DNA of 64,000 nt, taken from assembly GCA_018402155.1 (NCBI GenBank), contig JAGYJG010000001.1, positions 1,632,501 through 1,696,500 of the forward strand, given 5' to 3'. The notes beneath the pieces were generated by a model. That model worked only from the letters and a program-made list of their open reading frames with translations. It was not told the DNA's origin and ran no database searches. Positions 9,380 to 12,756 of the stretch are shown here, piece by piece. The stretch comes from Bacteroidia bacterium. Lineage in GTDB: Bacteria > Bacteroidota > Bacteroidia > NS11-12g > UBA9320. A program made the position numbers and the translations under genes. Positions within the stretch are counted from its first letter, which is position 1, and every line of letters starts with the position of its first letter.

Positions 9380-10432
9380 TCAATGGGGAAACGAAAGTTT
9401 TCTTCTATTGGCAAAAGCAACGAGAGAAAGCATCAAAGGGACCTCTACCAAAACTCCGACTACACATACTAGAGCAGCTGGGCTATGTAGTCCAAACAAG
9501 GCAATGGCAACTGCAACGGCAAGTTCAAAAAAATTGCTAGCGCCTATCATAGCAGCTGGCGCACATACTGCATAAGGTAGCATTATTTTCTTGCCTATAA
9601 ACCATGCAATGAAAAAGATAAAATATGTTTGAATAATCAAGGGTATTGCGATATACAAAATAATCAAAGGATCATTGATAATATTTCCACCTTGAAATGC
9701 AAAAAGAAATACTAGAGTGAGTAGCAAAGCGATAATACTCATTGGTTTTAGTTTGGGTAAAAAGCGTTGTGTAAACCACTCTTCTCCATGCTTGCTCACC
9801 AAGTACCTATTGGTAAATACCCCTGCCACAAGTGGCACCACAACAAAAACAACAATACTCATAATCAAGGTATTATAGGGTACTATCACATTTGTAATAC
9901 CCAATAATAAACCTACCAATGGTACGAAAGCCACAAGTATAATAAGATCATTCACAGACACTTGCATCAAGGTGTAGTTGGCATCTCCATCACTCAAATA
10001 AGACCATACAAAAACCATAGCTGTACAAGGTGCTACACCAAGCAAAATGGCTCCCGCAATATACTCTTTGGCCATATCTGGAGTAATAAAAGCACTATAT
10101 AAATTGGAGAAAAATAACCATGCGAAAAACGCCATTGTAAATGGTTTTATCAGCCAATTGATGACCACGGTAAGAACTATTCCTTTGGGTTTTTTGGAGA
10201 CCTTTTTGATGGATGAAAAATCTATTTGTAGCATCATTGGGTAAATCATCATCCACATCAATATGGCTATAGGGATATTTACTTTGTAGATTTCTAACCC
10301 GCTTAGGTAGGTTGTGCTATCAGGGGCTATACTTCCTATTACTACGCCCAAAATAATGCATATAGCCACCCACAGTGTGAGGTATTTTTCAAAAAATGCA
10401 ATTTTCTTTTTAGGTATTTTTTGTGTATTCAT
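9380..10432 (-). CDS. acr3: Arsenite efflux permease, ACR3 family
   Basis: A ten-helix secondary transporter expelling As(III) (and possibly Sb(III)) across the inner membrane. The 350 residues fit the family. The conserved Cys of the substrate path is Cys136 in LLGVAPCTAMVFVWSYLSDGD. Characteristic segments include YPMMLQIDF in the second helix region and CAPAAMIGASNFFELAVAVAIALFG in the ninth, the latter diagnostic for ACR3. It is the last gene of the leftward ars operon, 35 bp after the arsC-like gene. The order arsR - transporter - DUF6428 - arsC - acr3 is a coherent arsenic detoxification unit. Arsenite produced by the ArsC-like protein would be its substrate. Confidence 0.95.
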   Translation of the reverse strand: MNTQKIPKKKIAFFEKYLTLWVAICIILGVVIGSIAPDSTTYLSGLEIYKVNIPIAILMWMMIYPMMLQIDFSSIKKVSKKPKGIVLTVVINWLIKPFTMAFFAWLFFSNLYSAFITPDMAKEYIAGAILLGVAPCTAMVFVWSYLSDGDANYTLMQVSVNDLIILVAFVPLVGLLLGITNVIVPYNTLIMSIVVFVVVPLVAGVFTNRYLVSKHGEEWFTQRFLPKLKPMSIIALLLTLVFLFAFQGGNIINDPLIILYIAIPLIIQTYFIFFIAWFIGKKIMLPYAVCAPAAMIGASNFFELAVAVAIALFGLHSPAALVCVVGVLVEVPLMLSLVAFANRRKLSFPH

Positions 10433-11123: not shown

Positions 11124-11591
11124 TTAGCAGCATCCTCCTCCAGGTGTACAGTTTATGATATTTTTTAATTCTACTGCACTTTTCTTAGGTTTTATATCTG
11201 AAATACCACAACTATCTTTGGCTAAGCAATCGGTTAGTTTTTGGGTGAGTAAAAAGTTATTGCCGTCAAACTCTAGTCCAAACTTACCAATAGTTTCTGC
11301 TTGGTATTCTACCTCTATTTCCAAATCTGCTATTCCAAGTATCTTTTCAGAAAGTTCAATGATATTCAATAATTTTTCGGGATGAAGTCTGTGGTCGTAA
11401 TCGTTGGCATTCCACAATTGAAAATTGACAACCTCTTCGTTTCTTTCAGTTCCACCGCAGTCTATAAAGTGTTTAGTTATTTTACCTACCTCGGTAACGT
11501 GAAAATGACTGGGGACCAACTCACCGTTGGGCAACTGAAAGGAGATAGTTTCTGACTGTTGGAGTGCTGCTTTTACTTTTGATAATTTCAT
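11124..11591 (-). CDS. Arsenic-operon protein, DUF6428-type, Cys-rich tail
   Basis: 155 residues with no known enzymatic motif. It matches my memory of the DUF6428 family, found in Bacteroidota ars operons between arsR and arsC. The protein is soluble and mostly acidic, with DCGGTERNEEVVNFQLWNANDYDHRLHPEKLL as its most distinctive stretch. It holds several cysteines (near 43, 133 and 138) and ends in NCTPGGGCC, a tail that could bind As(III) or pass it to ACR3. That function is inferred only from context and cysteines. It lies 41 bp upstream of arsC and 27 bp downstream of the transporter gene, so co-transcription is very likely. Confidence 0.8.
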   Translation of the reverse strand: MKLSKVKAALQQSETISFQLPNGELVPSHFHVTEVGKITKHFIDCGGTERNEEVVNFQLWNANDYDHRLHPEKLLNIIELSEKILGIADLEIEVEYQAETIGKFGLEFDGNNFLLTQKLTDCLAKDSCGISDIKPKKSAVELKNIINCTPGGGCC

Positions 11592-11618: not shown

Positions 11619-12413
11619 CTATTTACTAAGTCTTAGTATTCTAAAAGCTCCTTGAATAACTAAGGCAAATACTACTGTTCCTATGATTAAGTCGGGAGTG
11701 CTAGAGTCTAACCAATGTACCAAAATACCTGCAAGAATTACGCCCAAGTTGATAATCACATCATTGGATGTGAAAATCATACTTGCTTTCATATGAGCTT
11801 CTTCTTTACTTTTTGATTTTTGCAGTATATAGAGACAAATGGTATTTGCCAAGAGAGCAAATATGGATACTACTATCATTGTCGCAAAATTTGGCAGTTG
11901 CTCTGCGCCCAAAAACCGTCTTATTACTTCTAAAAATCCAACACAGGCAAGTACAATTTGGAAGTATCCTGCAAGTTTTGCTATGTTCTTTTTCTTTACT
12001 ACAGTGCCCCCAACGGCCAGCAAACTGGTACCATAGACCACACTATCTGCAAGCATATCTAGGCTATCAGCAACTAGTCCCATTGATTTGCCAATAATAC
12101 CCGTAGTCATCTCCAATACAAAAAACGAAAAATTAATACTCAAAACCATCCAAAGTAACTTTCTCTGATTTGCATCTTCATGAAAGTGAGTCTCATTGGT
12201 TTTTTCAGAAGAACGCTTCTTACTCCCCAATTTCAATTCACCCAAAGAATAATCAATACTAGCAATTTCACTACTATGAAAAACAGTCAAACGTCTATTA
12301 GGAATATCAAATATTAAGTGTTTGACGTTTTTATTTTCACTTAATTTCATTCGTATCAAATTTTCCTCAGAAGGGCAGTCCATTTGTTTGATATCGAAAA
12401 TACTTTTATACAT
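11619..12413 (-). CDS. CDF-type cation transporter with HMA-like N-terminal domain
   Basis: 264 residues in two parts. Residues 1-60 look like a heavy-metal-associated ferredoxin-like domain (IFDIKQMDCPSEENLIRMKL), but with a single Cys (Cys13) instead of CxxC. Residues 85-262 form a cation-diffusion-facilitator membrane domain of about six helices. The first metal-site motif is GLVADSLDMLADS (D116, D119, D123), and a second Asp is in TSNDVIINLGV. A His-containing linker (ETHFHED, about 74-80) joins the halves. No cytoplasmic C-terminal CDF domain is present. It starts 13 bp after arsR. The substrate is unknown: divalent metal efflux is the family role, and placement in the ars operon suggests induction by arsenite. 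Confidence 0.82.
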   Translation of the reverse strand: MYKSIFDIKQMDCPSEENLIRMKLSENKNVKHLIFDIPNRRLTVFHSSEIASIDYSLGELKLGSKKRSSEKTNETHFHEDANQRKLLWMVLSINFSFFVLEMTTGIIGKSMGLVADSLDMLADSVVYGTSLLAVGGTVVKKKNIAKLAGYFQIVLACVGFLEVIRRFLGAEQLPNFATMIVVSIFALLANTICLYILQKSKSKEEAHMKASMIFTSNDVIINLGVILAGILVHWLDSSTPDLIIGTVVFALVIQGAFRILRLSK

Positions 12414-12426
12414 ATTTATATATGGC

Positions 12427-12756
12427 TTAGCAGCAATCTGTTTGTGGAATATCTTGATCTAAAAATGCAATCATAACCTCTTTCATTGCAGCCCAATTTT
12501 CTTTATGAATACAGTAGCAAACGCTCGTTCCTTCTACGCTACCTTTTATCAACCCAAGGTGTTTTAGTTCCTTCAAATGTTGTGAAACTGTCGGTTGTGA
12601 TAAACCTATTTGATTTACTATATCACCACATACACAAGAGTTAATATTAAAAAGATATTGCAAAATAGAAACCCTTGCAGGGTGACCAAAAACTTTAGCA
12701 AAAAGTGCTATTTCATTTTGTTGATCGGTAAATTTTTCGCTTTTTACTAATCCCAT
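12427..12756 (-). CDS. arsR: ArsR-family arsenite-responsive repressor
   Basis: A 109-residue winged-helix SmtB/ArsR repressor. The DNA-reading helix lies in NQIGLSQPTVSQHLKELKHLGLI (about 48-70). As(III)-binding candidates are Cys41 and Cys43 in NSCVCGDIV, equivalent to the ELCVC motif of classical ArsR. Additional cysteines occur at 80, 82 (VCYC) and the C-terminal 108-109. It is the first gene of the leftward five-gene unit, so it most likely autorepresses the operon. A -7-like TAACATTGC and an overlapping imperfect dyad lie about 20 nt before the start codon. Confidence 0.95.
   Translation of the reverse strand: MGLVKSEKFTDQQNEIALFAKVFGHPARVSILQYLFNINSCVCGDIVNQIGLSQPTVSQHLKELKHLGLIKGSVEGTSVCYCIHKENWAAMKEVMIAFLDQDIPQTDCC

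Follow-up and report, generated by a model that had tools for sequence, protein, structure and literature searches.

Why does an arsenic resistance operon carry, as its second gene, what looks like a transporter of divalent metals? The question is raised by a stretch of 64,000 nucleotides (here called the window) from the genome of a Bacteroidia bacterium of the lineage NS11-12g. A preliminary description of this DNA had recognized a fusion of a heavy-metal-associated (HMA)-like fold with a single Cys to a cation diffusion facilitator (CDF) domain without its usual C-terminal domain, lying second in an arsR-acr3 operon, and had suggested that it may add Zn/Cd resistance or export a chelated arsenic species. 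The answer put forward here, and judged fairly probable, is that the gene product is a small CDF-fold exporter of divalent metals. The gene would belong to a mobile metal-resistance family, would have joined an ars operon, and would have close relatives that move as cassettes. The genes run in the order arsR, HMA-CDF, DUF6428, arsC, and acr3 (Table 1). The fusion does lie second, with the DUF6428 and arsC-like genes intervening before acr3; the DUF6428 gene and the loss of a His in TM5 are points beyond the preliminary description.

Table 1. The HMA-CDF fusion gene, its parts, and the surrounding ars operon (positions in the window)
Feature	Positions	Strand	Basis
HMA-CDF fusion gene, 264 aa	11619..12413	(-)	ORF, Pfam, structure model, structural alignment
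N-terminal HMA-fold domain, residues 1-71	12201..12413	(-)	Pfam below cutoff, model secondary structure, HMA structural alignment
CDF transmembrane domain, six helices, residues 81-264, without C-terminal domain	11622..12173	(-)	Pfam, model, alignment
DCPSEE loop, residues 12-17, predicted metal ligands D12, C13, E16/E17	12363..12380	(-)	Conservation
TM2 motif D116-S-L-D119-M-L-A-D123; D119 and D123 align with ZnT1/ZnT10 site positions	12045..12068	(-)	Alignments, conservation
TM5 motif F214-T-S-N217-D218; F214 at the usual His position (ZnT8 alignment)	11760..11774	(-)	Alignments, conservation
arsR (ArsR/SmtB family regulator), 13 bases upstream of the fusion	12427..12756	(-)	ORF, profile matches, gap measurement
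DUF6428 gene (PF20001, 220 bits), 27 bases downstream of the fusion	11124..11591	(-)	Pfam
arsC-like low-molecular-weight phosphatase/arsenate reductase, 204 aa	10468..11082	(-)	TIGR02691 43.6 bits, below cutoff 174.3
acr3 arsenite efflux transporter	9380..10432	(-)	TIGR00832 389.9 bits, cutoff 282.8

In the fusion protein, Pfam places the Cation_efflux family (PF01545) at residues 87–261 with 61.2 bits against a cutoff of 26.6. An HMA match at residues 6–50 (17 bits) lies under the Pfam cutoff of 24.8, and the NCBIfam CDF superfamily score of 68.1 is under its cutoff of 82.35. The protein was modeled with AlphaFold2 from an alignment of 36 rows (mean pLDDT 67, about 70–87 over the first 70 residues), and the model has a beta-alpha-beta-beta-alpha-beta arrangement at residues 2–71 followed by six helices at 81–263. 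When the model was compared with known structures by VIA-align, residues 7–204 of YiiP aligned with residues 81–264 (Z 17.4, rmsd 2.9, 181 residues), against a background of only about Z 12 for unrelated ferritins, and HMA domains aligned with residues 1–72 with Z of about 12–13 and rmsd of 1.1–1.5. Since the fusion ends at the equivalent of YiiP residue 204, the six-helix domain is present and the usual C-terminal cytoplasmic domain of CDF proteins is absent. The HMA part has the ferredoxin-like fold of its family, with the metal loop between beta1 and alpha1. Pfam, the model, and the structural alignments all bear out the two-part architecture first described, and the CDF part is a divergent branch of the CDF fold. 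CDF proteins lacking the C-terminal domain are a recognized variant, called numerous and of unclear function in the passages that deal with them (PMC6465983). The fusion resembles these in having only the transmembrane domain of a CDF protein, to which its own branch adds a DCxxEE HMA domain.

The residues expected to hold metal were scored for conservation on 33 representatives (85% identity) of the 127 family members. The usual metal motif of HMA domains is CxxC. It is absent from the fusion, and a near-invariant DCxxEE stands in its place, with C13, E16, and E17 found in every one of the 33 representatives and D12 in all but one. C13, within D12-C13-P-S-E16-E17, is thus the Cys that the preliminary description singled out, and the near-invariance of this loop rules out a degenerate HMA domain that has simply been left with one Cys. 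Within the membrane part, the TM2 signature of CDF proteins ([H/D]xxxD) is present and the TM5 signature (HxxxD) is absent: Phe takes the place of the His in all 33 representatives, and the Asp (D218) is retained. The DxxxD of TM2 and the FxxND of TM5 make up the metal site of the fusion and are conserved across the 33 representatives. The fusion therefore shares with YiiP/FieF and ZnT-type CDFs the six-helix domain and the DxxxD of TM2, whereas it differs from them in its missing C-terminal domain, its N-terminal HMA domain, the Phe in place of the TM5 His, and the Asn before the Asp. The ligands of YiiP are given as D45, D49, H153, and D157, and its TM5 His is described as both a ligand and a proposed proton carrier (in the parts of PMC6465983 on the transport site); since this His is Phe here, the substrate of the fusion may differ from that of YiiP.

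The HMA loop has counterparts in ATPases. The fusion family and the 712-aa P1B-ATPase of the locus L154 (MKQSTFVIANMDCPTEEALIRKRL) have the start MDCPxEExLIR in common, with the same motif and spacing; the ATPase, whose N-terminal HMA domain is thus of the DCxxEE type, scores 515.4 bits with TIGR01512 (Cd) against a cutoff of 313.5. The zinc domain of AtHMA4 (2kkh), whose ligands are CCxxE, is a weak match to the HMA part of the fusion in sequence and fold (29% identity). Compared to the N-terminal HMA domains of Zn/Cd P1B-ATPases, the fusion has Asp for the first Cys and a CDF partner instead of an ATPase. Because of its HMA loop and its TM2 and TM5 site residues, the fusion likely has a divalent-metal substrate, and Zn/Cd is a first guess in spite of the altered site; the structure search yielded no information on substrate for the fusion. 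The exported ion would most likely be of the Zn/Cd class. It may be captured by the N-terminal domain via the D-C-x-x-E-E site, perhaps replacing the missing C-terminal domain, and would then pass through the carboxylate site (D119, D123, and D218) to the periplasm. The gene product can be pictured, then, as a putative exporter that carries its own metal-capture domain and an atypical site lacking His, and it makes the question of substrate in CDF proteins without a C-terminal domain directly testable.

The role of arsenic has to be weighed against how often the gene is found with ars genes. In a survey of 395 genomes of the class, 42 genomes gave 46 matches to the fusion family, all of at least 276 bits and well separated from the following matches (47 bits or less). 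For 45 copies with wider flanks (L110, on the same contig as the named copy L057, was dropped), neighbors were collected over a range of 5 kb. Only two of these 45, the window copy and that of the genome G065, have acr3, arsC, and DUF6428 within this range, though DUF6428 is present in 148 of the 395 genomes. In five of seven loci from the window's own genus, family, and order, DUF6428 directly follows arsR, with no fusion between them, and the other two have no recognizable arsR of this type there. The gene is thus largely absent from other ars operons, one part of what the preliminary description had named as refuting it, and the survey rules out an arsenic role drawn from operon context alone. 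The exceptions are G065, whose 61% identical copy lies upstream of arsR, a 161-aa ORF, DUF6428, arsC, and acr3, and Gelidibacter (L059), where ars genes are the neighboring cassettes of an HMA-CDF copy. These two linkages and the second place in an ArsR-headed operon are what could be said for a fusion that exports an arsenic species, such as thiol-chelated arsenite, together with Acr3. With the counts just given, a transport site of three carboxylates, and an HMA loop that has one Cys and no tri-thiol site, such export is highly improbable, and the arsenic link of the gene is weak. The earlier suggestion of added Zn/Cd resistance stands as the leading type of reading, and the arsenic-specific one does not. 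The fusion would not be an arsenic pump. The simpler reading of the seven loci is an insertion in the window's line, with loss in the relatives as the alternative; a mobile metal-resistance gene would have been placed between arsR and DUF6428, where ArsR would control it and arsenite would co-induce it.

Whether the ion is of the Zn/Cd class is a separate matter. With its TM5 His gone and only carboxylates in the site, the fusion could be a CDF protein for another divalent ion (Fe2+, Mn2+, Pb2+, or Hg2+), which is on the unlikely side and is the more serious of these two rivals. The conserved DxxxD and FxxND fit it, as does the best single-sequence PDB match of the fusion, the Mn transporter SLC30A10 (E 0.0026), whereas the best profile match is ZnT8 and the type of HMA domain is common to a Cd-family ATPase. 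The neighbors within 5 kb of the 45 copies are mixed: TonB receptors at 10, MerTP at 7 (a point for another ion), RND-pump-like proteins at 6, P-type ATPases at 6, Fur at 6, and acr3 at 2, as family-checked on cluster representatives, where the RND-pump label was assigned by inspection of the sequence and Pfam gave nothing more specific than “P-type ATPase.” None of the named clusters lies within 5 kb of 19 of the 45 copies, so the context does not fix the substrate. Plasmids offer further relatives. The fusion matches 839 plasmid records, 470 of them over at least 80% of the protein, and many weaker ones cover the CDF part only. On one Acinetobacter and one Enterobacter plasmid, cadR is divergent from the relative, a linkage that argues against another ion. 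For example, the Enterobacter plasmid pEhoE1-1 carries a “cation transporter” 43% identical to the window protein over residues 2–262 of the latter, beside cadR, lspA, and an ISPpu12 transposase. The relevant passage on Tn6018 lists cadR, a putative cation efflux gene, lspA, and tnpA (PMC5561048), from which the pEhoE1-1 gene is inferred to be the CDF gene of Tn6018/ISPpu12. That gene is under CadR control on an ISL3-type element, whereas the window fusion sits in an ArsR-headed ars operon. The CDF protein of ISPpu12a appears to be a relative of the fusion as well, and its metal module is described as failing to make any of the tested strains resistant to Cd, Co, or Zn (in the section of PMC4447125 on that module), which favors another ion. 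In the relative on the Acinetobacter plasmid (L223:3473-4783), the CDF part is preceded by a Cys-rich N terminus and a tandem pair of DCSAEE HMA domains; the gene is divergent from cadR and followed by feoAB, the latter a point for another ion. A Deinococcus relative is located after an ArsR/SmtB gene. An exporter of the Zn/Cd class is the reading carried forward here.

How the family travels is best seen in its closest copies, which come from the top 80 of 277 stretches ranked by similarity, so that counts on these copies apply to them and not to the family as a whole. In 79 named loci, the proteins are 73–76% identical to that of the window, and the genes are 84.6–95.1% identical in DNA to that of L031. 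Their neighbors are largely unrelated across the loci and are often single genes on one strand. Among 82 of these closest named copies, 65 have a cassette start, GTTGTAAGTA or GTTGTGGTTA, shortly before the ATG. Starts of the AAG type go with a downstream CTTACAAC core (42 copies) and those of the GG type with a AACCACAAC core (16 copies), so that start and core are matched in 58 of the 65, crossed in none, and left unassigned in 7; the 58 include six copies with a short palindrome and at least one (L103) whose core is followed by no attC. A script recognized both the start and a full downstream attC in 47 of the 82. In the six copies just mentioned (L052, L066, L082, L088, L089, and L092), the short palindrome CTTACAACAMYGGTAAYCGTTGCACAA lies just downstream of HMA-CDF in place of a full attC, and is perhaps a shortened site or the end of an array.

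The attC-like sites have the anatomy expected of integron cassettes. Of 108 sites found by script, 20 were rejected by eye as wrongly delimited, and the remaining 88 were reduced to 45 at 90% similarity; 35 of these have 132 bases or fewer, and 33 were used for the alignment and model, with a pairing scheme drawn up by hand for that alignment. They have AAC and GTT ends and paired arms, with 85.0% of cells paired compared to 69.0% in shuffled alignments (0 of 500 shuffles reached it) and 24–38% when slid. In twelve pairs both partners have changed. Mispairing at two positions is almost constant (30 and 33 of the 33 sites), as expected of extrahelical bases. Folding of the bottom strand as DNA gave the expected stem in five sites (z −2.6 to −3.8). 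A covariance model built on these sites has 430 matches over the 79 loci. Ten genomes with named copies have at least 21–88 sites of this type each (up to 150 candidates scored per genome), and at least 153 of the 395 class genomes have one or more (up to 8 candidates scored per genome). Rfam, searched for attC on 11 loci, gave nothing at the gathering threshold except one Flavo-1 RNA; that match (L216:1018-1096, 47.7 bits) lies directly upstream of an integron recombinase, and the 10 other loci have none at this threshold.

Arrays of such sites sit below a tyrosine recombinase. The sample consists of 11 stretches from ten genomes, chosen for adjacency of recombinase and attC and made up mostly of downstream sequence, so its strand bias serves as description only. 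The recombinase is on the same strand as 115 of the 117 sites, and the 2 opposite matches overlap same-strand ones. The recombinase, which is XerA-like, is upstream of the array by 341–1467 bases. By profile score, it falls short of a canonical IntI. All nine recombinases tested are below the TIGR02249 (IntI) cutoff, and none of the 11 genomes has a match above it, although sub-cutoff matches also occur in all 14 control genomes. Six of the nine exceed the cutoff of NF040815, named “site-specific tyrosine recombinase/integron integrase.” In the one recombinase aligned with IntI4 (2a3v), that of L211, two aligned pieces leave out about 43 residues of IntI, and six of seven recombinases have about 90–110 extra N-terminal residues with no Pfam family. 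The arrays agree with chromosomal integrons in the ends of their sites, in cassette starts complementary to the core of their own attC, in having mostly one ORF per cassette, and in their place below the recombinase. They differ in the low IntI scores, the missing IntI4 residues and added N terminus of the recombinase, and its orientation, which is that of the cassettes in the 11 chosen loci.

These differences invite another explanation, in which there is no integron at all and the inverted repeats are those of another mobile element (ends of an IS or MITE) that carries single genes. The short palindromes of the six copies fit it, and so do the scores below the IntI cutoff and the recombinases of L059 and L082, which face the opposite way. 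Against it stand the agreement of start and end types in all 58 copies where both are seen, as expected of circular cassettes; the AAC…GTT anatomy with its fixed mispaired positions; and the arrays of one orientation below a tyrosine recombinase. Recombinases are also the commonest neighbor cluster (16 of 109 loci), and each of the transposase-like clusters noted occurs in three loci or fewer. Such an element is improbable, and the flavobacterial arrays apparently represent an integron system, one whose recombinase scores below the IntI model. In that system, close relatives of the fusion in marine Flavobacteriia would move as single-gene cassettes with attC-like sites, through the XerA-like recombinase.

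The window copy itself is another matter. The R1 model of attC has no match in the window at E of 0.1 or below, and with gaps of only 13 and 27 bases to its neighbors, this rules out the copy as a cassette. In the tree, it is a long branch inside the supported set of 35 rows that also includes the cassette copies, with no settled position in that set or relative to the cassette clade. Given this branch and the lack of an attC, a cassette origin of the window copy is no more than a possibility. The cassette copies themselves branch shallowly and come from about 30 genera (counted by hand from record titles), including Algoriphagus (Cyclobacteriaceae). The window's own genome has a few attC-like sites outside the window. 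Two of its loci (L209:1339-15676 and L210:983-16384) have recombinases followed by six and three attC-like sites, and these recombinases, of 372 aa, are identical except near the N terminus. More diverged copies of the fusion in G215, G329, and G232 also have adjoining attC-like sites, so the family either entered cassettes more than once or has been in that state for long; weaker sites (E 0.03–0.04) adjoin the copies of G349 and G211. A Moraxella plasmid copy (68% identical) is not the same cassette, as no attC was found in the stretch read.

In Gelidibacter (L059:7506-10940), arsR-DUF6428-arsC-acr3-like genes and a 138-aa ORF lie between two attC sites, in what looks like an ars operon forming one multi-gene cassette. 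Among the loci compared, this set has the arsR (74%) and DUF6428 (75%) closest to those of the window, and it adjoins the HMA-CDF cassette, a layout that suggests how such ars and fusion genes may come together.

Most notable overall is what appears to be an integron system whose recombinase lies beyond the IntI model. The name of NF040815 already covers six of the nine recombinases. Reviews count Bacteroidota among the integron-bearing phyla in the passages that list them. The larger point is one of gene flow: the part of a 2022 survey dealing with complete integrons reports one in Bacteroidetes only from Salinibacter ruber (PMC9024848), whereas attC-type sites are numerous in the ten genomes with named copies and occur in many others of the class. 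Within the open PMC literature, no paper combines integron, Flavobacteriia, and attC, and no report of these flavobacterial arrays was found among those titles, starts of abstracts, and passages that were looked through. Should the arrays prove functional, folded attC sites would be handled by a recombinase that lacks the IntI-specific region, with implications for the function of that region, and ocean bacteria may contain a large cassette pool that has escaped notice. The broadest reading, which is about evenly balanced between true and false, is that Bacteroidia, chiefly marine Flavobacteriia, have a widespread integron system with XerA-like recombinases that lack the IntI-specific region and with dozens of attC cassettes per genome. 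HMA-CDF would be among the most travelled of these cassettes, with one of its genera outside the Flavobacteriaceae, a whole ars operon could fill a single cassette, and the window's genome would run two integrons, its ars operon having been assembled from such circulating gene pieces.

Two other arrangements of the gene are worth noting. In seven loci (L116, L117, L118, L121, L124, L133, and L151), HMA-CDF occurs together with a TonB-dependent receptor and a DUF6660-like small protein (the one example scanned is below the Pfam cutoff), with 2–6 bases between receptor and fusion, and this set is likely a metal operon of its own. One genome (L141:7439-10313, G140:C23) has two HMA-CDF copies that differ from each other, with about 2 kb between their starts.
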